Positions 2,958-15,029 of a DNA stretch of 38,492 nucleotides are shown here, one piece after another (positions within the stretch are counted from its first letter, which is position 1; every line of letters begins with the position of its first letter). A model generated the notes under the pieces. It worked only from the letters and a program-made list of their open reading frames with translations. It was not told where the DNA came from and made no database searches. The stretch is from a virus: the IMG/VR virus record IMGVR_UViG_3300020165_002639, positions 1 through 38,492 of that record; one strand, 5' to 3'. The translations under genes were made by a program, and so were the position numbers.

Positions 2958-3368
2958 TTAGTTAAATCCTAAGTGTGTTACTTCTGGATATTTAGCCATG
3001 ATTTTCCTTGCTATCTCGTTGTGTGCTTTGACCATCTGGTTCATGTGACCCTCTGGCTTGCCACCTGATATCATGTTGCCGTCCCTTGTGGCTGGTTCTT
3101 CTGGTGATCTCTTGCCAATGTTCTTTTGTAACCATTGTGTGGTCCTTGCTATGAATTCTTTTGCTGGCACAGGACTCTGGTCCTCGAAATCCGGATTGTA
3201 TCCAAGTGCGTACAAGAACTGTCTCATACTGGCGTTGCTCATGTATGGGCTCTCCACTTCCTTGTCGTCCTGGTATGCCTTTGGGAATGTCCATAGATTT
3301 TTCTCTGTTGGATGCTTGTGGTATGCGATCATTTCTGCGCCTTCTCTGATGAATTCTTGTGCCCTCAT
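2958..3368 (-). CDS. Putative internal head protein with capsid-targeting-like N-terminus
   Basis: A 136-residue protein that begins MRAQEFIRE-GA. This closely resembles the T4 internal-protein leader (consensus like MKTYQEFIAE-A), which directs proteins into the prohead and is cut after the Glu by the gp21 protease. The mature part has a helical, polar composition with no enzyme motif I recognise. The C-terminal half (KAHNEIARKIMAKYPEVTHL) is a likely helix. A late octamer (CATAAATA) ends 6 bases before the ATG and there is no ribosome-binding site. The function after packaging is unknown. Confidence 0.85.
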   Translation of the reverse strand: MRAQEFIREGAEMIAYHKHPTEKNLWTFPKAYQDDKEVESPYMSNASMRQFLYALGYNPDFEDQSPVPAKEFIARTTQWLQKNIGKRSPEEPATRDGNMISGGKPEGHMNQMVKAHNEIARKIMAKYPEVTHLGFN

Positions 3369-3381: not shown

Positions 3382-3538
3382 CGGCCTCGTCTTCGTATCT
3401 ACAGTGTTTACACACCTCTATTTGATACTCCCTGCCGTCGTAATCCTGCTCTGTCCTGTACAATGGACCGTCGTGTGCGTCGTTTCCGCAGTTGAGACAC
3501 TTCACTATCCATTCTGTCTTAAGGACTAATGGTTCCAT
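3377..3538 (-). CDS. Small zinc-ribbon protein
   Basis: A 53-residue protein, MEPLVLKTEW to YEDEAA, with two CxxC knuckles: CLNC at residues 14-17 and CKHC at 43-46. This is the arrangement of a four-Cys zinc ribbon. The start overlaps the stop of the upstream gene as TAATG, which supports translation by coupling. Small phage zinc ribbons often bind nucleic acid or partner proteins, but nothing here fixes the role. It sits inside the putative internal-head-protein cluster but lacks the shared N-terminal leader. Confidence 0.8.
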   Translation of the reverse strand: MEPLVLKTEWIVKCLNCGNDAHDGPLYRTEQDYDGREYQIEVCKHCRYEDEAA

Positions 3539-3804
3539 TATGCTAATGGGCCGCCAAACAGGCTCGTACCTTTCAATTTGTGTGCACCTTTGGCTGTGCC
3601 ATCTGGATTCTTGGGTTGCACTACTTTTGGTAATCTAGGTGCCCTTGTTCCAGATCGGCCCGGTGATCCCGAATAGGCCTTTGAGAATCTGTCTTTGCCT
3701 ATGGCAATGTGTGGACTGACCACACTTGCTATGTTTCCTGCACTGGTGGCGCCCGCAGTTGCCTGCTCTTGCACCCTACGTATGATTACTTCGTTGATCT
3801 TCAT
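3538..3804 (-). CDS. Putative small internal head protein, basic
   Basis: An 88-residue, Gly/Ala/Pro-rich basic protein. The start is placed at ATG 3804, giving MKINEVIIRRVQEQ. This fits the cluster's shared N-terminal pattern, puts a GCTAAATA late-like motif 8 bases upstream, and makes a 4-base ATGA overlap with the upstream gene. A longer version starting 33 bases upstream is possible but loses these features. A VQE-Q site near residue 13 could be a protease cut. The remainder looks unfolded (SGSPGRSGTRAPRLP), as expected of a DNA-contacting internal protein. Function unknown. Confidence 0.75.
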   Translation of the reverse strand: MKINEVIIRRVQEQATAGATSAGNIASVVSPHIAIGKDRFSKAYSGSPGRSGTRAPRLPKVVQPKNPDGTAKGAHKLKGTSLFGGPLA

Positions 3805-4428: not shown

Positions 4429-5643
4429 TTATTTGGATTTCTTGCGTCCGCTTTTCATGTTGGCACACCAGTGGTACATCTTGGCCTTCTCGCCACTGCT
4501 GTTTTTTGCTCTTTTACGCAGTGCTGTGACAGATCCGTTGCAACTGGCACCTGATCTTTTGACCCTGCCAGGCCTGCTCTTGCCCTTCTTCTTGCCGTCC
4601 GCGAAGTTCTCGTTGAACTCCTTCCAGTCTAACTTCAATTTTTTCACGTTCATGTATTCACCGCCAACTGGCACATCCTTTGTGGCGTTCTGTTTTGTGA
4701 TAATACCAACGCCAGCGGCCTCCTTCTTGGGCCTACCGTGTTTGTTGTGCTGTGCCCACGCCAGTGCGTATGCCCCAGACTTGCCGAATTTCTTCTTCAG
4801 TGCTTTGACCTGTTTCTCCCTGCCTGGTGGTGCCTCTTCTTCTATGTCTTGAGGTGGAACAATTTGTGCCTTTATGGAATTAGCACCTGCTTTCTTATGT
4901 CCCCAGAAACGATGGTGTCCATCGATGACTTGGTAACCGTTCTTGTATTTTCTTGCAAGTATAGGTCCCATGGGTTTTTTACTTTGTACAGCCTTTGCTA
5001 TTTGATCCACTTTGGCCATGCTCTTAGGGTCTCTCATCTTGTCTTCGGGTTCGAACCCAACCAATTGTTTAATAGGAATGTTGACTTGTGGGCCTGTGGC
5101 TTTGTATTTTTCCACGCCGATTGCACCAAAATATTTTGGGTCTGTTGACAGTTTTATTTTGTTTTCGTTTGCTCTGTTGTTGCCCTTGTTCTTGAAATCA
5201 TATCTGTTGTTTGGACCAACACCTGGTTTGTGTATCAACCCCATTGTGTCTGCCGTGTGTGGCATTATTATGAATTCAGTTATCGGCATCTTGGCATCTG
5301 CGGCCGCTTGTTTGATCTGGTCTAACTTTCCTTTGGCATTTGCATCACCTCTGGCGGCGTTTTGTTTTATTGTTTTCCATTCAGTGTCCATGTACTCCTG
5401 CCATGCCGCTGGACTCATGCTCCGCAAAGGCGTAATTTTATCACCGCCAGCGGCTTTGGTTTTTGCATCTTGTCTAGGATATTGTTTTAAATTCGTTGAT
5501 GTGAAAATGTTTGGTTCTGCAGGATTTGGTCTTTTTCCCATTGCTCTTAATTCTGGACTGTCCAACAAGTAAGGCATGACTGCTTTTGCCTGTCTTAATG
5601 CATTCCAGTCTATTCTCTCTTGAACTATATCTCTTATCTTCAT
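4429..5643 (-). CDS. ParB/sulfiredoxin-like domain protein with basic Cys tail
   Basis: A 404-residue multidomain protein. Residues about 190-262 form a ParB/Srx-like fold: an IPIKQLVGFEP strand, a helix of the AKVDQIAKAVQSKKPMGPI type, and the signature VIDGHHRFWGHKKAG. Some phage ParB-like domains have nuclease or ATPase activity. After this come a GKSGAYALAWAQHNKHG segment and a very basic tail (about 350-404) with isolated Cys residues (ASCNGSV, MYHWCANMK). I recall related tails in marine T4-like phages. The N-terminus MKIRDIVQE-R fits the cluster's capsid-targeting-like pattern. The role is unknown. A packaged DNA-binding or nicking protein is one inference. Confidence 0.8.
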   Translation of the reverse strand: MKIRDIVQERIDWNALRQAKAVMPYLLDSPELRAMGKRPNPAEPNIFTSTNLKQYPRQDAKTKAAGGDKITPLRSMSPAAWQEYMDTEWKTIKQNAARGDANAKGKLDQIKQAAADAKMPITEFIIMPHTADTMGLIHKPGVGPNNRYDFKNKGNNRANENKIKLSTDPKYFGAIGVEKYKATGPQVNIPIKQLVGFEPEDKMRDPKSMAKVDQIAKAVQSKKPMGPILARKYKNGYQVIDGHHRFWGHKKAGANSIKAQIVPPQDIEEEAPPGREKQVKALKKKFGKSGAYALAWAQHNKHGRPKKEAAGVGIITKQNATKDVPVGGEYMNVKKLKLDWKEFNENFADGKKKGKSRPGRVKRSGASCNGSVTALRKRAKNSSGEKAKMYHWCANMKSGRKKSK

Positions 5644-5870
5644 TTTTTCTTCCTGCCCGCACAGTGGGCCTTCTGTGAGAATCCCTTTGGGTTGCTACAG
5701 TTTATGGACTTCTTGTATTTCTTGCTCCAGCCTTCTACCCTATACGGGTATGCCATCATGGAATGGTATCCCATACTTGCTCTGCCCTTGGCCCTTCTTT
5801 GCTGTTTCTTAAGTATATTGTCCACGTCAGGGTGAACATACTTTGTGGCCAGTACCTCCCTGATCTTCAT
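5640..5870 (-). CDS. Small basic protein with shared Cys motif
   Basis: A 76-residue, strongly basic protein. It begins MKIREVLATKYVHPDVD, which fits the cluster's N-terminal pattern, although I see no clear Glu cleavage site. The middle has KKQQRRAKGRASMGY, and the end has INCSNPKGFSQKAHCAGRKKK with two Cys residues. It overlaps the next gene by 4 bases (ATGA). The basic, Cys-containing tail resembles in style the tail of the protein at 4429-5643, suggesting both bind DNA or the same partner. No function is assigned. Confidence 0.75.
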   Translation of the reverse strand: MKIREVLATKYVHPDVDNILKKQQRRAKGRASMGYHSMMAYPYRVEGWSKKYKKSINCSNPKGFSQKAHCAGRKKK

Positions 5871-6072: not shown

Positions 6073-6627
6073 TTATTCTGTTGCTCTCAAAGTAATCACA
6101 CCACAGGCCAATCTTTCACCTGCGTTTCCAGTTTTTAGACTTTCGGCGTCTCCGCCCTTGCCTAGGTCATCCTCGTCTTCATGCACTACAAATCCTCTAC
6201 CTATCACAGATCGTTCTCCGATCAGATCCACTCTCTTTGCTTCTATTGTGAACTTGGCAGTCCCTGATTCGTCTGCTGTGATATTGCCAAGATCGCCCAC
6301 GTGGCCTTCGTTGATGTCACCGTGATCAACTCCGTCTGGGTTGTAGTGTCCGCCCATGCTCTTACAACCATCTGACATGTCGCCAAACTCGTGTATGTGG
6401 AATCCGTGAAGTCCAGGCTTCAGTCCTGTGATGGTACCCTTTACTAGTGTTGACGTTCCTGATGCTTGTATAAGCAGGATAGACCCCTTTACAGAGTCAG
6501 AATGCTCCAATATACACTGTGCCACTGTTGTTTCCTGTGCTTCGGTAATTGCATTTACTTTACTGCAACTACACTCCTTTGCCTTGGTTCTGGGACAACT
6601 TGTTTCTGTGAATTCTAATGCTCGCAT
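6073..6627 (-). CDS. sodC: Cu/Zn superoxide dismutase with capsid-targeting-like leader
   Basis: A 184-residue Cu/Zn superoxide dismutase, which converts superoxide to oxygen and hydrogen peroxide. All metal ligands are visible: H77 and H79 (GFHIHEFGD), H94 (GGHYNP), H102, H109, D112 (HVGDLGN) and H149 (GFVVHEDEDD). The disulfide pair C88/C175 and the active-site Arg R172 (GERLACGV) are also present, so it should be active. Instead of the secretory signal normal for bacterial SodC, it begins MRALEFTE-TS. This matches the leaders of neighbouring putative internal head proteins. Residues 10-35 form a linker with four Cys (C11, C19, C21, C38 region). A late octamer is 9 bases upstream. The inference is that the enzyme is packaged in the virion head rather than exported. 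Confidence 0.95.
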   Translation of the reverse strand: MRALEFTETSCPRTKAKECSCSKVNAITEAQETTVAQCILEHSDSVKGSILLIQASGTSTLVKGTITGLKPGLHGFHIHEFGDMSDGCKSMGGHYNPDGVDHGDINEGHVGDLGNITADESGTAKFTIEAKRVDLIGERSVIGRGFVVHEDEDDLGKGGDAESLKTGNAGERLACGVITLRATE

Positions 6628-6635
6628 TGTGCGAG

Positions 6636-6643
6636 TATTTATT
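6636..6643 (-). promoter_or_regulatory. T4-like late promoter octamer AATAAATA
   Basis: The octamer ends 9 bases from the superoxide dismutase start at 6627. It lies across the stop region of the upstream 69-aa gene, so superoxide dismutase is expected to be expressed late. Confidence 0.6.
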
Positions 6644-6848
6644 TGTTTTTGGGCATTGGGTTTTCGCCAGTGAGTCTAGGTTGTGCGAACCATAGTTTGA
6701 ACCACTCTTGTGTGCCCGGTTTGATGTTGTGCTTTCTCTGATACTGTGATTTCTGTGTGCCAATGTAGGATAGGTTCTCGCCCATTGAACTTTCCGTAGA
6801 TAGTTTATCTACGCCTGCCAACTGTTTGATCCTCTCTAGTTCGTCCAC
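6639..6848 (-). CDS. Small conserved phage protein (GTG start)
   Basis: A 69-residue protein beginning MDELERIKQLAGV and ending GENPMPKNK. The start codon is GTG at 6848 and overlaps the stop of the upstream gene as TAGTG, so translation depends on coupling. The segment HNIKPGTQEWFKLWFAQPRL looks like a conserved helical motif that I associate, from memory, with marine T4-like phage structural regions. No catalytic residues are visible and the function is unknown. Confidence 0.75.
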   Translation of the reverse strand: MDELERIKQLAGVDKLSTESSMGENLSYIGTQKSQYQRKHNIKPGTQEWFKLWFAQPRLTGENPMPKNK

Positions 6849-7027
6849 TAGATGGTCCAGTCCTTCATCTGTTGTTTTGTAGGTTTGTGTGCCTTTACTT
6901 TTTCCACCTTGCCACCTTTGGCTAGGAACTTCTTCATCTTCTCGTCTAGTTCTCTCTGTAGTTCCTGAGGTGTCTTGGGTATTTCACCTGTTGCGTATGG
7001 TCTATTGATCCCGCTGAATTTTGGCAT
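6848..7027 (-). CDS. Small conserved protein, 59 aa
   Basis: ATG at 7027 to TAG at 6848 gives a protein that begins MPKFSGINRPYATGEIP and ends KQQMKDWTI. It is basic and helical in the centre (ELDEKMKKFLAKGGKVEKV). It overlaps the end of the upstream nucleotidyltransferase gene by 26 bases and the following GTG start by one base. It has protein-like composition and fits the overlap style of the operon. Function unknown. I recall FLAKGGKVEK-type motifs in small proteins of marine myoviruses. Confidence 0.7.
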   Translation of the reverse strand: MPKFSGINRPYATGEIPKTPQELQRELDEKMKKFLAKGGKVEKVKAHKPTKQQMKDWTI

Positions 7028-8183
7028 AGTCTTCCAGTCCTTTCTGAACTTTGTTAAGTGAGTCTCTGTTTGCTTGATATAGTATTCCGTAACCTCCGGC
7101 CGCCTGCCACTTCTGTATGTTGACTGGCCTGTCGTCGATTAGGATGTTGGGTGTACCTGTGCCCTTGTCTTTGGCATAAGTTTCTTTCCTACCAGTGACA
7201 ATTATATTGTCAGGTTGTTCGATGTTATTTGAAATCCATACTTTTTTATACTTGGCACTGTTATCATGGTCACCCCTCAATGGTGACGTGTTAATTGAAA
7301 ACTTACCACCTGTGAATTTCTTCACCATTTCTATCAGTGCATCTGCTGTTGGGAATTTTGGTAGCACTGCGAAGAAGTCTGTGCCAGTGATTCTATCTAT
7401 GACTTGTTTCTTCAAGTCCTTTGTTTTGTCGTTTGTTAATTCCTTCCAGTGTTCAACACCATAAAGGAATTCAACTCCACCAAAGAAGTCTGCTAGGACT
7501 CCGTCCATGTCAAGATATACGATTGGCTTTGCATCTTCCATATCCTCATTATACAACTTTTTGTTGTTCTCGTCAACTGTCTTACCAAACTGGTCCTGTA
7601 TCTTGTCGTAAAGAACTTTACCTTTGTCGCCACCCATTATGATCTTGCTGAATTCGTGTTCCTGTCCCTTCATTGCAAGTTCTCTGGCCTTGGATGCAGA
7701 AACACCTGTGATGTCACTTGCGTCTGGATCACGTTGTCCTGCACTGACAACTTGAATGCTGTCAAATGTGTATTCAACATTTCCAGACTTGGTTGGTTTT
7801 CCGTTGTACTGATTTAATAATTTTTGGAATTCCATTACTCTGTCGTCGCCTGCAACCATTATCACTTTTGTTCTACCTTCCTGCTCAAGCACCTTCATCA
7901 CTTTGATTATAGTGTTTGCCCTGATATCTCCAAAACTTAATTTAGGATCCGATTGGAAATGTTGTCTCATGTAACTTAATTTTGTTGTGAAATCTATTGG
8001 ATCTTTAGCAGTGCCACCTGTGTGTGCTAGGAACACATACCCCTTGCCATTTACCTTATTGGCAACAGATTGTACTTTCTGTATTAACTTCTCGTGTCCT
8101 ATTGTGGGTGGATTGAATCGGCCAAAGGCAAATACTGCGGTTGAACGATCGTCCTCTCTAAGAAACAGTTCCCTGAGATACAT
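7002..8183 (-). CDS. Nucleotidyltransferase-HAD phosphatase fusion, putative head cargo
   Basis: A 393-residue two-domain protein. Residues about 14-200 are a cytidylyltransferase-like (HIGH superfamily) domain: GRFNPPTIGH (21-30) holds the T/HxGH site, and GVSASKAREL (160-169) matches the ISxxxxR motif. Such enzymes transfer a nucleotide onto a phosphorylated substrate, as in NAD or CDP-alcohol synthesis; the substrate is unclear. Residues about 220-385 are a HAD-like 5'-nucleotidase-type domain with the VYLDMDGVLADFF nucleophile motif (D225, D227) and a late ILIDDRPVN acidic motif. The N-terminus MYLRELFLRE-D fits the cluster's leader pattern and is followed directly by the enzyme. Upstream overlap is 26 bases. 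Confidence 0.85.
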   Translation of the reverse strand: MYLRELFLREDDRSTAVFAFGRFNPPTIGHEKLIQKVQSVANKVNGKGYVFLAHTGGTAKDPIDFTTKLSYMRQHFQSDPKLSFGDIRANTIIKVMKVLEQEGRTKVIMVAGDDRVMEFQKLLNQYNGKPTKSGNVEYTFDSIQVVSAGQRDPDASDITGVSASKARELAMKGQEHEFSKIIMGGDKGKVLYDKIQDQFGKTVDENNKKLYNEDMEDAKPIVYLDMDGVLADFFGGVEFLYGVEHWKELTNDKTKDLKKQVIDRITGTDFFAVLPKFPTADALIEMVKKFTGGKFSINTSPLRGDHDNSAKYKKVWISNNIEQPDNIIVTGRKETYAKDKGTGTPNILIDDRPVNIQKWQAAGGYGILYQANRDSLNKVQKGLEDYAKIQRDQ

Positions 8184-8514
8184 CGTATTCGCCTTGCTTT
8201 ATGTTTTCTAATTCTCTATCTGATATAATTTGTGCAACCTTTTGTCTGGTCTCTTTTGGGAACATTGTTGCAACGTCGTCCTGTGTTGTGCCAAATTCTT
8301 TAACATATTCCTTTGCGGCATCATCAACAAGATACATCCAAAGTTTCTGTGCCTTGTCATGATCATACACATTCTTTTTTAGTTTCCTACGGATGTTGCT
8401 TATGATTGGCATGAAACGTCTACGATACAGTTCTTCGTTGTTCATAATGTAAGAATCCAGCTCGTTTACAGCGTCTGAGTCTATGTTTTCTGAAATAAAT
8501 TGTGATGCTCTCAT
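8158..8514 (-). CDS. Putative internal head protein
   Basis: A 118-residue protein that begins MRASQFISE-NI, a clear match to the capsid-targeting leader pattern with a Glu cut site. The mature part is helical and basic in the middle (ELYRRRFMPIISNIRRKLKK) and contains KAQKLWMYLVDDAAKEYV. I recall similar proteins in cyanophages and other marine T4-like phages. A late octamer lies 8 bases before the ATG. The gene overlaps the next by 26 bases, so the nucleotidyltransferase fusion is probably co-transcribed. Function after packaging unknown. Confidence 0.8.
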   Translation of the reverse strand: MRASQFISENIDSDAVNELDSYIMNNEELYRRRFMPIISNIRRKLKKNVYDHDKAQKLWMYLVDDAAKEYVKEFGTTQDDVATMFPKETRQKVAQIISDRELENIKQGEYDVSQGTVS

Positions 8515-10720: not shown

Positions 10721-11333
10721 TTTTTACCTTTCTAAATTTAATTACTTTGTCTATCGCCTGCTGGGCCAACATGTATATTGGGGTCAGGTACTTCTCTTCT
10801 TTGACATAGAAGTATCCACCAAAACAGTACGGAGACTTGTCCTCAAGGAAGTCTATTATGTTGTAGTTAGATACCAAACAGTTGTCTACATTCCTTTCTA
10901 GAAACTCCCATAGGTTAGCCTTCTGTGTTTTACTCATCAATACCTGTGCGTCCTTCTTGAGATATACTTGGTATTGGTATTTGCCATGTGGCAGTCTCGT
11001 GCATCCTACGGTGTGCTTTCCTAGGTTCTTGAACTTTGGATCAACAGTCTCTGATCCAATCCAGAATTCCCAAAAACGTTCTATCAGTTCCTGTGACTTG
11101 TCCATGTTAGAATAGAATATGGTCTTCCTGTCCTGCATACGGAACTTGACGTTTTTCCTATTGGCCATTATGAAACTGGCAAGATGATTTACGTCTGGCA
11201 GTTCCTTGTAGTCGTTTTTTATCTTCATGAGATGTTCGTCCGTTGTGGGATAGAACATGAGACTACCAGGCAGTCGGAAAATTGTCTTGTGCCTGTACTT
11301 GCCGTAGTACAACTTATTGTGATTTTTTCTCAT
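10692..11333 (-). CDS. Unknown protein between Clp unfoldase and 98-aa gene
   Basis: A 213-residue basic protein beginning MRKNHNKLYYGKYRHKTIFRLPGS. It is rich in aromatic residues and Lys, with strand-like segments such as HGKYQYQVYLKKDAQVLMSK. There is no motif I can name. It overlaps the unfoldase gene by 20 bases, so it is translated from the same transcript. Its position suggests a substrate adaptor or an unrelated replication factor; neither is supported by sequence. I recall uncharacterised relatives in marine myoviruses. Confidence 0.75.
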   Translation of the reverse strand: MRKNHNKLYYGKYRHKTIFRLPGSLMFYPTTDEHLMKIKNDYKELPDVNHLASFIMANRKNVKFRMQDRKTIFYSNMDKSQELIERFWEFWIGSETVDPKFKNLGKHTVGCTRLPHGKYQYQVYLKKDAQVLMSKTQKANLWEFLERNVDNCLVSNYNIIDFLEDKSPYCFGGYFYVKEEKYLTPIYMLAQQAIDKVIKFRKVKNGSNKKTTR

Positions 11334-13659
11334 CAGATACCTCGGGTTTAAGTTGCTCTAATACCTGTGGCTCTTTCTTGGCTTTGAAATTCACTGTGAG
11401 TTTTGGAACAATGTCGTCCGATAGTCCTACTTCGACCATGCCACCTGCTGTTAGCTCTCCGAACAACATCATTTTAGACAAAGGTTTCTTGATCTCGTCG
11501 TCTATCACACGTTGTAGTGGCCTCGCACCCAGTTTTGCATCAAAACCTTTTGTCATCAAGAACTCGATTGCGTCATCAGTTGCGTTGACTTCTACATCTT
11601 TCTCCATTGTCATTGTGTTTAGTTCCTGCAAGAACTTCTTGACCACAGATCTCATTGTGTCTTTGCCCAGTTTGTCGAACTTGATCACTGCGTCTAGCCT
11701 GTTCCTGAATTCTGGTGGGAAGAACTTCTTGAGTGCCTTGTCATCCTCGCCTGTTCTCTCACTCTTACCAAATCCTATGTTGTTCCGCTCTTGTTCTTCT
11801 GCACCTAGATTAGATGTCATTATCAGTGTAATATTTCTACAGTCTGCTTTCTTGCCGTTAGAGCCAGTCACTGTACCATAGTCCATGACTTGTAGCAACA
11901 TGTTGGACACATCTCTGTGTGCTTTCTCTACTTCATCAAACAGCACAACTGCGTGTGGATTCTTTTCAACTTCATTAATGAACATACCGCCACCCATGTT
12001 TGAGTCTTCATAGCCCACATAGCCTGGAGGAGATCCAATCAGTTTAGCGATTGAATGTTTTTCTTGGTATTCACTCATGTCAAACCTAATTAATTCAACA
12101 CCTAGTGTTTTTGCCAGTTGTTTTGCAGTTTCAGTCTTACCACAACCTGTTGGTCCTAGGAACAGGAACGAGCCAACTGGTTTTGTTAGACTCTTGAGGC
12201 CTGCTCTTGCAACCAGTATCTTGTCTGTGATTGTGTTTATCGCCTTGTCTTGGCCATAAACCTGTAGTTTCATCTTCTCTTCCAATGTCTTCAAATTACT
12301 TGCCTGTTTCTGACTCAACTGCTCGATACTGATCCCTGTCATTACTGATATCTCATGTATTATTTCCTCATGGTCTATCTTACCATCTTTTACATTATTC
12401 AATCTCAATCTTGCACAGGCGACATCTATCACGTCAATCGCCTTGTCTGGCAGTTTCTTGTCTGCTATGAATTTTGTGGAGTAATCAACTGCGTCCTCAC
12501 AGGCTTCGTCTGTGATCGTGCATTCGTGGAACTTCTCGTAATACTGTTTCACACCCTTAAGAATCTTTACTGATGTTTCTTTTGATGGTTCACCAACTTG
12601 TAGTCTCTGGAACCTTCTCATAAGTGCTCTGTCCTTCTCGAAATACTTCCTGTATTCTTCCCAGGTTGTAGAAGCAAGTACTTTGATTGATCCTTTCAAC
12701 AGTGCGGGCTTCAACATGTTCGCCATGTCCATGTTGTTGCCCTGGCCTGTTGCTCCAGCACCCACTATCATGTGTGCTTCATCAATAAACAAGATAGACT
12801 TGCCTTTTTGATCCAATGCGTTAACGATCAGTTTCAACCTCTCCTCAAAGTCACCTCTGAATTTACTGCCCGCAATAAGACTGTTCACATCTAGACTCCA
12901 TACAATATGGTCTTTCAAGTATTCAGGTATGTCGTCTTTGTTCTTTGCGATCCTCCTAGCAAGTCCTTCTACGACTGCTGTCTTACCAACACCCGGATCG
13001 CCTACTATCAATACATTGTTCTTGTTCCTTCTTGCAAGGATCTGTTTCAAATCTTCTGTTTCCTGCTCTCTACCTATCACGGGATCAATCTTTTTGTCAA
13101 AATATTTTTGATTCAAGTTCTCACAGTAGCTCTTCAGTATTCTATCTGCTTGATTGGGCCTCAGTTTCTGTTCTTGGCCTGCATCGACTGGGCCACCCAT
13201 TCCGGCCATGCCCTCATCCAGTATGGTCTCCGTGGACACAAGGTCTATGAGATCCTGTTTGTTCACTTGGTGTTTCTTCAAGAAGAATGCCGCATAGCTC
13301 TTCTTCTCGGCGAATATGCTGATGAGTATATCAACGGAACTAACGTCCTGTCTGCCTTGGAATAGTGCCTGTGTGAACGCCCTGTTCATTAATCTTTCCA
13401 GCGATGCCGTTTTACGTGGTGTCATTGGTTCACTACCTTTCGCCACAATATCATTACATTTGGTATCAAGATAATCCTCAACATCCTTGATCAATGCACC
13501 AACCTGCACCTTGAAGTCATGCAACACAGTTCCGATGTGTTTGTCCTTTATTAAAGACAATAACACGTGTTCGATTGTGACGTACTCGTGTCTTCTCTTC
13601 TCTGCTTCTTTAACTGCATTCTCGAATATGTTCTCTAGTCCTTCATTTGCTTCTAACAT
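11314..13659 (-). CDS. clpA: ClpA-like AAA+ protease unfoldase
   Basis: A 781-residue, two-ring AAA+ unfoldase. It has a Clp N domain (about 1-145, including HVLLSLI), a first ATPase module with Walker A GDPGVGKT (220-227), Walker B FIDEA (291-295) and Arg finger region MRRFQRL, then a second module with GPTGCGKT (502-509), LFDEVEKAH (573-581) and EFRNRLD. There is no ClpB middle coiled-coil, so it is ClpA/ClpC-type. IGF at 628-630 matches the loop that docks on ClpP. No clpP is in this window, so host ClpP is the probable partner. It would feed selected proteins to ClpP using ATP. Shine-Dalgarno AAAGGA precedes the ATG. It lies downstream of deformylase and DnaJ in one operon. Confidence 0.93.
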   Translation of the reverse strand: MLEANEGLENIFENAVKEAEKRRHEYVTIEHVLLSLIKDKHIGTVLHDFKVQVGALIKDVEDYLDTKCNDIVAKGSEPMTPRKTASLERLMNRAFTQALFQGRQDVSSVDILISIFAEKKSYAAFFLKKHQVNKQDLIDLVSTETILDEGMAGMGGPVDAGQEQKLRPNQADRILKSYCENLNQKYFDKKIDPVIGREQETEDLKQILARRNKNNVLIVGDPGVGKTAVVEGLARRIAKNKDDIPEYLKDHIVWSLDVNSLIAGSKFRGDFEERLKLIVNALDQKGKSILFIDEAHMIVGAGATGQGNNMDMANMLKPALLKGSIKVLASTTWEEYRKYFEKDRALMRRFQRLQVGEPSKETSVKILKGVKQYYEKFHECTITDEACEDAVDYSTKFIADKKLPDKAIDVIDVACARLRLNNVKDGKIDHEEIIHEISVMTGISIEQLSQKQASNLKTLEEKMKLQVYGQDKAINTITDKILVARAGLKSLTKPVGSFLFLGPTGCGKTETAKQLAKTLGVELIRFDMSEYQEKHSIAKLIGSPPGYVGYEDSNMGGGMFINEVEKNPHAVVLFDEVEKAHRDVSNMLLQVMDYGTVTGSNGKKADCRNITLIMTSNLGAEEQERNNIGFGKSERTGEDDKALKKFFPPEFRNRLDAVIKFDKLGKDTMRSVVKKFLQELNTMTMEKDVEVNATDDAIEFLMTKGFDAKLGARPLQRVIDDEIKKPLSKMMLFGELTAGGMVEVGLSDDIVPKLTVNFKAKKEPQVLEQLKPEVSDEKKSQ

Positions 13660-13662
13660 TGT

Positions 13663-14157
13663 CTATCCTTTGTTTGCCATTTGCCATCGTAATTTCGATA
13701 CTCTTTTATTAAATGTAATACCGTCAAGGTGATCGAGTTCATGCTGGAAGCACTTGGACTCCATCCCGTCGAGTTTTGCGAATCTTGTTTTGCCTTGTGT
13801 TGTTTCATATTGTACTTCTATAGTTTTTGGTCTTTCTACTTTTACGAAAATGTCTTTAAAACTTAGACATCCTTCCACATCAATAATCTTTTCTTCACCG
13901 AAGTTTATCACCTGTGGATTCCAAATTATAGCATGTTTTTTCAATGTGTCAAATGACTCATGACCTATCGCGAAGAATCTTTTGGTAATGCCGATCTGGT
14001 TTGCCGCCAGTCCCATGCCATGCTCATCTAACATTAACTCAATTACGTCTGATTCGAATCTTTCTAGATCGTCGTATCCATCTATACTGTCATCCTCTTT
14101 CCAGACTGTGCTGGTCTGCAACAGGGTCTCGTGTGGGTATTGGAATAACTGTATCAT
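13663..14157 (-). CDS. def: Peptide deformylase
   Basis: A 164-residue peptide deformylase, which removes the formyl group from the N-terminal methionine of new proteins. All three signatures are present: GMGLAANQ (47-54), EGCLSF (95-100, metal ligand C97) and QHELDHLDG (H139, catalytic E140, H143). The length is normal for the catalytic core, without the longer bacterial tail. It overlaps the dnaJ stop by 4 bases and precedes the Clp unfoldase by 3. Marine phages, including cyanophages, are known to carry deformylase genes. Here it is part of a protein-maturation operon. Confidence 0.96.
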   Translation of the reverse strand: MIQLFQYPHETLLQTSTVWKEDDSIDGYDDLERFESDVIELMLDEHGMGLAANQIGITKRFFAIGHESFDTLKKHAIIWNPQVINFGEEKIIDVEGCLSFKDIFVKVERPKTIEVQYETTQGKTRFAKLDGMESKCFQHELDHLDGITFNKRVSKLRWQMANKG

Positions 14158-15029
14158 AGGTCCTTTATCTTCTTCAAGTCAGCGGCACTCAGTTGCGGTA
14201 TCAACACATGCACTTTCACATACAGATTACCACGTATGCCTATGGTCTTGTGTACTGGCATTCCCTGTCCCTTGACTTGCAGTATGGTATTGGGTTGTGT
14301 GCCTGACGGCACTTTAACTTTAATTATTTTGTCTTCCAGTGTCTTGAGATTGAAGTCATGTCCACGCACTGCCTGGAAACAGTCTATGGTCTTGTCAGTG
14401 TATAGATCATTGCCTTTCCTGGTGTATCCATCACTGTCCAACACGCTCATCATGACCATGAGATCACCACGAGGCACGTTCTTTATGCTGTCGTCACCCA
14501 TTCCTGCGAACTTGAACGTGACTCCGTGTTGCACTCCTGCAGGTATTTTAACAGTTGCAAACTCATCTCTGCCGCTGGGCAGTTTGTAGTTGATGGTCTT
14601 CTCATTTTCATTCATGGCTTCTTTGATGCTCAGTGCCATTCTTACCTGAACACTTCTGTTGCCTCTCTGTTGCGTTCTGTTCTGTCTGAATATCCTTTCT
14701 CCTCCAGGTCCTTTAGTGAAGTTGAAACGACTGTTGAAATCCATGTCACCGCCACTGAACCCAGAGAAGAAGTCACCGAAGATGTCCTCATTGAAGAACG
14801 GATGCTGTCCGCCACCAGTATTGGCACTGCCAAACTTACGCATCGTGTCGTATTCGTGTCGTTTCTTTGAGTTCTTGAGCGTGTCGTGTGCTTCGTTGAT
14901 CTCCTGGAACTTGTCCTTGTTACCGCCCCTGTCTGGATGATGTTGCTTGGCCAGGTCCTTGAATGCTTTTGTTATATCTGCACTGGTGCTCTGTTCATTC
15001 ACACCTAGCACGTCGTAATAATTTTTCAT
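14154..15029 (-). CDS. dnaJ: DnaJ-family co-chaperone (class II/CbpA-like)
   Basis: A 291-residue J-domain protein. The J domain (1-65) has the HPD motif at 31-33, needed to stimulate Hsp70 ATPase. A Gly/Phe-rich linker follows (about 68-105, FFSGFSGG), then two beta-barrel C-terminal domains (about 125-285) with RGDLMV and RGNLYVKVHV. There is no CxxCxGxG zinc finger, so it resembles CbpA or class II proteins. No phage DnaK is present, so it presumably recruits host DnaK. It is the first gene of the DnaJ-deformylase-Clp operon. A sigma70-like promoter ends about 7 bases before its ATG, and there is no Shine-Dalgarno sequence. Confidence 0.95.
   Translation of the reverse strand: MKNYYDVLGVNEQSTSADITKAFKDLAKQHHPDRGGNKDKFQEINEAHDTLKNSKKRHEYDTMRKFGSANTGGGQHPFFNEDIFGDFFSGFSGGDMDFNSRFNFTKGPGGERIFRQNRTQQRGNRSVQVRMALSIKEAMNENEKTINYKLPSGRDEFATVKIPAGVQHGVTFKFAGMGDDSIKNVPRGDLMVMMSVLDSDGYTRKGNDLYTDKTIDCFQAVRGHDFNLKTLEDKIIKVKVPSGTQPNTILQVKGQGMPVHKTIGIRGNLYVKVHVLIPQLSAADLKKIKDL

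Follow-up and report, generated by a model that had tools for sequence, protein, structure and literature searches.

The Cu/Zn superoxide dismutase (SOD) gene described here (6073–6627, minus strand) probably specifies an internal head protein made as a precursor, one that would be targeted to the phage head, matured by a gp21-type protease, carried in the virion and probably injected. The window, meaning the whole stretch of DNA analysed (38,492 nucleotides), is a 38-kb fragment given as a linear virus record. Head targeting of the enzyme had been proposed in a preliminary description of this DNA, and sequence comparison supports the proposal well through a leader class shared with other genes, a late promoter, the presence of gp21 and its cut motif in the lineage, and fusions of the SOD to leader-bearing or polyvalent-type proteins.

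An intact SOD1-type enzyme

The complete open reading frame begins with ATG and specifies a precursor of 184 aa, which matches the Pfam family Sod_Cu (PF00080) with an E-value of 1.5e-45 and 155 bits against a cut-off of 28.9 and is a single-domain protein in the Pfam search. The metal ligands H77, H79, H94, H102, H109, D112 and H149 are unchanged across an alignment of 43 sequences, as are the disulfide cysteines C88 and C175 and the active-site R172, which bears out the earlier remark that every Cu and Zn ligand and the disulfide are present. In a profile alignment the ligands, the disulfide cysteines and the arginine occupy SOD1 positions, and the best solved structures matched by the SOD profile are eukaryotic SOD1 chains. 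An AlphaFold2 model of the precursor has a mean pLDDT of 86.7 and a disordered N-terminus; its residues 33–182 (6082–6531, minus strand) align to residues 1–153 of human SOD1 with a Z-score of 28.9, an rmsd of 0.9 Å and 51% identity. The enzyme thus belongs to the SOD1 type, and whatever stands ahead of residue 33 is extra. Judged by its sequence, the gene encodes an intact Cu/Zn SOD of SOD1 type, with dismutase activity predicted.

A three-part prodomain with a predicted protease site

Comparing N-termini side by side resolves the extra segment into a prodomain of about 29 residues with three parts: a leader, a Cys-rich motif and a hydrophobic-x-E site. The leader, MRALEFTETS (residues 1–10; 6598–6627, minus strand), resembles a capsid targeting sequence and belongs to a class, M[RK]xx[ED]phi, that is common to neighbouring genes and their families. 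Its position 5 is E or D in 52 of 62 SOD homologues; in a minority the leader is degenerate, some starting MLLFEF or MRDLID and some having no clear leader. Next comes the Cys-rich motif CPRTKAKECSC (residues 11–21; 6565–6597, minus strand), of the form CxRTxxxxCxC, with C11, T14, C19 and C21 identical in all 62 SOD sequences. It is confined to phage SODs: elsewhere in the loci compared the pattern gives only chance matches, out of frame or containing stops, and both the motif and the prodomain are missing from all 76 non-phage cellular SODs that were compared. We know of no such invariant Cys-rich motif before the cut site in T4 leaders.

The third part is a predicted prohead-protease site, ITE (residues 27–29; 6541–6549, minus strand), with the cut before A30. 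It matches the L/I-X-E motif of T4, in which gp21 cuts after the Glu, several T4 head proteins being processed in this way (PMC9026906). With Asp at the cut position, processing in T4 is blocked. A hydrophobic-x-E site occurs in 46 of 46 distinct SOD prodomains, with varying middle and following residues; the count concerns a short motif in sequences that are related, not independent, and allows a one-residue shift in three of them. Cleavage after E29 would leave 155 aa, the size of SOD1, with AQETTVAQC as the first residues and a start three residues ahead of the position of human SOD1 residue 1. The likely cut of the precursor is thus predicted at E29/A30, where it would remove the Cys-rich segment and leave an enzyme of SOD1 length. 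Cleavage before T9, after FTE, was also considered and rejected: FTE is not conserved, and [LI]xE is found inside the leader in just 11 of 46 sequences, often at different positions, which makes E29 the better prediction. The preliminary description, which named T9 or later as the mature N-terminus to look for, was probably wrong in this detail, the universally conserved site being E29/A30. Judging from their sequences, the leaders of some homologues (IRE in locus L020, IAE in L021) could be cleavable as well.

It is tempting, if doubtful, to see in the prodomain a disposable built-in assembly factor. CCS, the eukaryotic copper chaperone, has a CxC motif, and CxRTxxxxCxC might similarly load copper or set the redox state of the SOD in the reducing bacterial cytoplasm; the prohead protease would then remove the prodomain, so that the enzyme would become active only within the head as it matures, and injection would deliver it.

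Late promoter and leader-bearing neighbours

The T4 late promoter is TATAAATA, with the core ATAAATA. A T4-type late promoter −10 element with this core (6636–6642, minus strand) starts 15 nt before the SOD ATG. ATAAATA lies no more than 30 nt upstream of the start in 9 of 57 window genes, against 0.27 expected, and precedes 25 of 42 distinct SOD genes at a distance of no more than 25 nt, where the background is 0.005. From this motif we infer that the SOD gene is expressed late, from its own T4-type late promoter.

Leaders of the form M[RK]x(1-2)[EDQ]phi start 6 of the 57 called window genes versus 2 of 271 internal Met positions. The resemblance of the SOD leader to those of its neighbours, noted earlier, is borne out by these counts, by the conservation of the leaders in the neighbour families and by their absence from adjacent controls. 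All the leader proteins that follow are encoded on the minus strand. One is a small protein (3538–3804), 2.3 kb from the SOD gene, which reads MKINEVIIRRVQE, then the cut, then QATAGATSAGNIA; its post-leader sequence is the inferred mature capsid N-terminus, and its version in locus L021 is MKISEVIRE-QATAGATSAGN. Another protein (8158–8514) begins with MRASQFISE followed by N, has a late promoter upstream, and belongs to a family that keeps [IVL]-x-E with a variable middle residue; neither of these two proteins has a match in cultured phages. MYLRELFLRE, followed by DD, opens a protein with cytidyltransferase and 5'-nucleotidase assignments from PHROG and Pfam (7002–8183), whose family has L-x-E in 10 of 10 N-termini, and MRAQEFIRE, followed by GAE, opens the product of 2958–3368, with hydrophobic-x-E in 11 of 12 N-termini. 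The remaining leader proteins begin with MKIRDIVQE (4429–5643; a weak ParB-like domain, with Pfam ParB_N at E 3e-4, below the curated cut-off, and a PHROG ParB-like match), MKIREVLATKY (5640–5870; leader in 12 of 12 N-termini) and MKFNELSHMMQK (1079–2956; leader in 13 of 13).

Hydrophobic-x-E, its middle residue varying freely, falls inside the first 16 residues in 15 of 16 members of the 8158 family, 10 of 10 of the 7002 family, 12 of 12 of the 3538 family and 11 of 12 of the 2958 family, versus 0 of 13, 0 of 11 and 1 of 10 in the adjacent control families 8528, 258 and 9839, which are without the leader.

A separate motif, [LI]xx(I/L)xxLAG[IV], recurs in cluster proteins (6639–6848 and 258–1052, both minus strand) and also stands at the extreme C-terminus of the gp22-like scaffold protein (62525–63589, minus strand) of a related contig, G001. 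Nearby in the window, likewise on the minus strand, are genes for a possible DnaJ-like protein, so named by its N-terminus (14154–15029), a peptide deformylase (13663–14157) and a ClpA/B-type AAA protein (11314–13659), all three syntenic in G001.

Prohead machinery in the lineage

G001 is a 196-kb contig whose SOD (L030) is 69% identical to that of the window. It holds orthologues of nearly all window genes in the same order, and its genes include those for a gp21 protease (E 4e-27), a gp23 capsid protein (E 2e-82) and, next to them, scaffold and portal proteins. Its portal protein is closest to those of the jumbo T4-like phages Phosso (54%), Atu_ph07 (52%) and PA5oct (49%). Both gp21 and gp23 are absent from the 38-kb window, and among 19 SOD-bearing contigs in which they were sought both were found only on G001, the remaining contigs being fragments. 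In the capsid proteins of the lineage ...Y(L/I)xE precedes xATAGATSAGNVATLNRVILP or a closely similar sequence, x being S, A, I, M, L, T or N; judging from this conservation, gp21 would cut them after (L/I)-x-E, for instance between LSE and QATAGATSAGN. Because the leader of the 3538–3804 protein stands directly before the mature-capsid sequence, the leader class of the SOD cluster is tied to prohead processing. In another contig, G002, about 35 kb separate the SOD gene from the cluster of leader genes, and fibre-like genes are a few kb away from it.

Fusions of the SOD module

Several homologues carry the SOD within larger proteins. In locus L029 a leader protein that starts MRAKEFIIMP and is related to other cluster genes is fused in front of the SOD prodomain; the prodomain follows cytidyltransferase-type sequence in L054 and L056, and a Gly-rich, Lys-rich protein starting MKIDDLITE or MRIKDFVNE in L072–L074 and L080. 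Elsewhere (L008, L062, L075 and others) an extra domain, DUF6267 or ParB-like, lies behind the SOD. In L054, L056, L062, L075, L008 and L080 the SOD is a module of long multi-domain phage proteins with cytidyltransferase, DUF5824, DUF6267 or ParB-like parts. The Cys-rich motif and the hydrophobic-x-E site are retained inside the fusions, so both belong to the SOD and not just to an N-terminus. Behind the core, hydrophobic-x-E occurs within 12 residues in 15 of 16 C-terminal extensions versus 15.5% of windows, a count that includes related sequences and a motif partly overlapping a structural strand; it hints faintly at cutting on that side too.

Polyvalent phage proteins are multi-domain proteins that combine ParB-like and other modules and for which packaging and injection have been predicted (Iyer et al. 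2017, PMC5512222). The SOD fusions are alike in joining ParB-like, cytidyltransferase or DUF6267 modules, whereas superoxide is unmentioned in that paper (PMC5512222) and the window SOD has a single domain. The two or more unrelated domains by which a packaged polyvalent protein is defined are present in some of the homologues and not in the window SOD itself.

Distribution of the phage SOD

A scan of IMG/VR returned 97 SOD-encoding stretches, of which 80 loci, 60–93% identical, were kept, representing at least 80 viral contigs. The SOD-bearing phages, which come from ocean samples, are large T4-like phages. Cultured phages hold no close SOD, only distant prophage-type SodC; the nearest are those of Gifsy-2 and Fels-1, with 32–36% identity over about 60% of the query. 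Cellular SOD relatives in GTDB are at most about 56% identical to the window SOD. Among GTDB species genomes four matches exceed 70% identity, all in MAG contigs with the phage-type prodomain, and these four are probably phage contigs binned with bacteria. The MAGs whose contigs have the phage-type SOD (L104, L105, L106 and L107) bear the labels Pelagibacter, Betaproteobacteria TMED41 and Rickettsiales MED657. The gene is dispensable in the lineage, being missing near the 8158 gene in several contigs, and it was not found on long contigs selected for a major capsid protein gene.

Alternative explanations

The most serious alternative, which we nevertheless regard as rather unlikely, is an ordinary cytoplasmic auxiliary metabolic enzyme that protects the infected cell and is not packaged, its N-terminal extension contributing stability, metal binding or regulation. 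Phages are known to carry SODs, as Gifsy-2 and Fels-1 do, the conserved Cys-rich segment could serve metal loading, and the dispensability of the gene would suit such a role. An enzyme of this kind would not, however, be expected to have a late promoter and a leader common to its neighbours, nor a conserved protease motif that separates prodomain from core in all of 46 distinct sequences, nor fusions to leader proteins and polyvalent-type modules.

A virion SOD on the outside of the particle or in the tail, instead of the head interior, appears very improbable. The window does contain tail and fibre genes, and the SOD gene of G002 is close to fibre-like genes, but the gp21-type motif and the core-targeting-like leader point to the interior, T4 gp21 acting inside the prohead (PMC9026906). 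Least credible of all is a secreted or periplasmic enzyme resembling the SodC of the Salmonella prophages. Although the Gifsy-2 and Fels-1 enzymes are the nearest among cultured phages, the window core is SOD1-type, and its prodomain has neither a hydrophobic signal segment nor a lipobox-like N-terminus. In the prodomain's place, a hydrophobic signal-like stretch is found in most of the 76 non-phage cellular SODs, and the maximum number of hydrophobic residues per 10 is 7–10 upstream of cellular SODs versus mostly 3–5 in the prodomains; on these grounds secretion was rejected, in agreement with the earlier observation that a secretion signal is missing.

A proposed route into the head and its implications

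On the preferred reading, that of an internal head protein, the precursor would be transcribed late from its own T4-type promoter, and its leader would act like the T4 capsid targeting sequence in binding the prohead core. During prohead maturation a gp21-type protease would cut after E29 (ITE, then A), removing the leader and the Cys-rich segment; this step is proposed because the motif is kept in every homologue and because gp21 and capsid-protein cut sites exist in the same lineage. The 155-residue SOD1-like enzyme would stay inside the head with the DNA and, by analogy with T4 internal proteins, would probably be ejected with it into the next cell, where it might remove superoxide early in infection; alternatively, it might guard the packaged genome. 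In other members of the family the SOD is part of a longer polypeptide and is flanked on one side or on both by cut motifs. The suggestion in the preliminary description that the enzyme could protect packaged DNA, or else the infected cell, in sunlit water is plausible.

In T4 the capsid targeting sequence is a leader of 10 residues at the N-terminus (PMC9026906). The T4 internal proteins IPI–IPIII and Alt share with the phage SOD a short Met-basic leader with an acidic-hydrophobic pair, an L/I-x-E cut motif, late expression (predicted here from a promoter motif), gp21 in the lineage and clustering with other leader genes. They differ in that the cargo here is an SOD whose packaging is predicted, and that some 20 more residues, with the invariant Cys-rich motif among them, precede the cut motif. 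Among viral SODs, A245R of PBCV-1 is a functional Cu/Zn enzyme, encoded by a late gene and packaged in the virion (PMC7019647), so the earlier statement that chloroviruses package such an enzyme is correct. Like the window SOD, for which late expression is predicted, it is a late-expressed viral enzyme of SOD1 type, whereas PBCV-1 is a virus of algae, with no prohead-protease route described there. Gifsy-2 SodCI and Fels-1 SodCIII are likewise phage-encoded Cu/Zn SODs but are of the secreted bacterial type, lysogenic cargo without a head leader.

Searches of the openly licensed literature yielded no account of a tailed phage that packages an SOD. If the reading is right, an antioxidant enzyme would be packaged by tailed phages too, besides eukaryotic giant viruses, by the same means as in T4, capsid targeting and gp21 cleavage. 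Engineered T4 has packaged and delivered foreign enzymes that were joined to the targeting sequence, and the phage SOD would be a natural counterpart of that design. The sequence rule seen here, a leader plus hydrophobic-x-E with a free middle residue, would then predict injected proteins in uncultured jumbo T4-like phages, and a packaged SOD would raise the question of what superoxide does to the phage genome or to the cell in the first minutes of infection.
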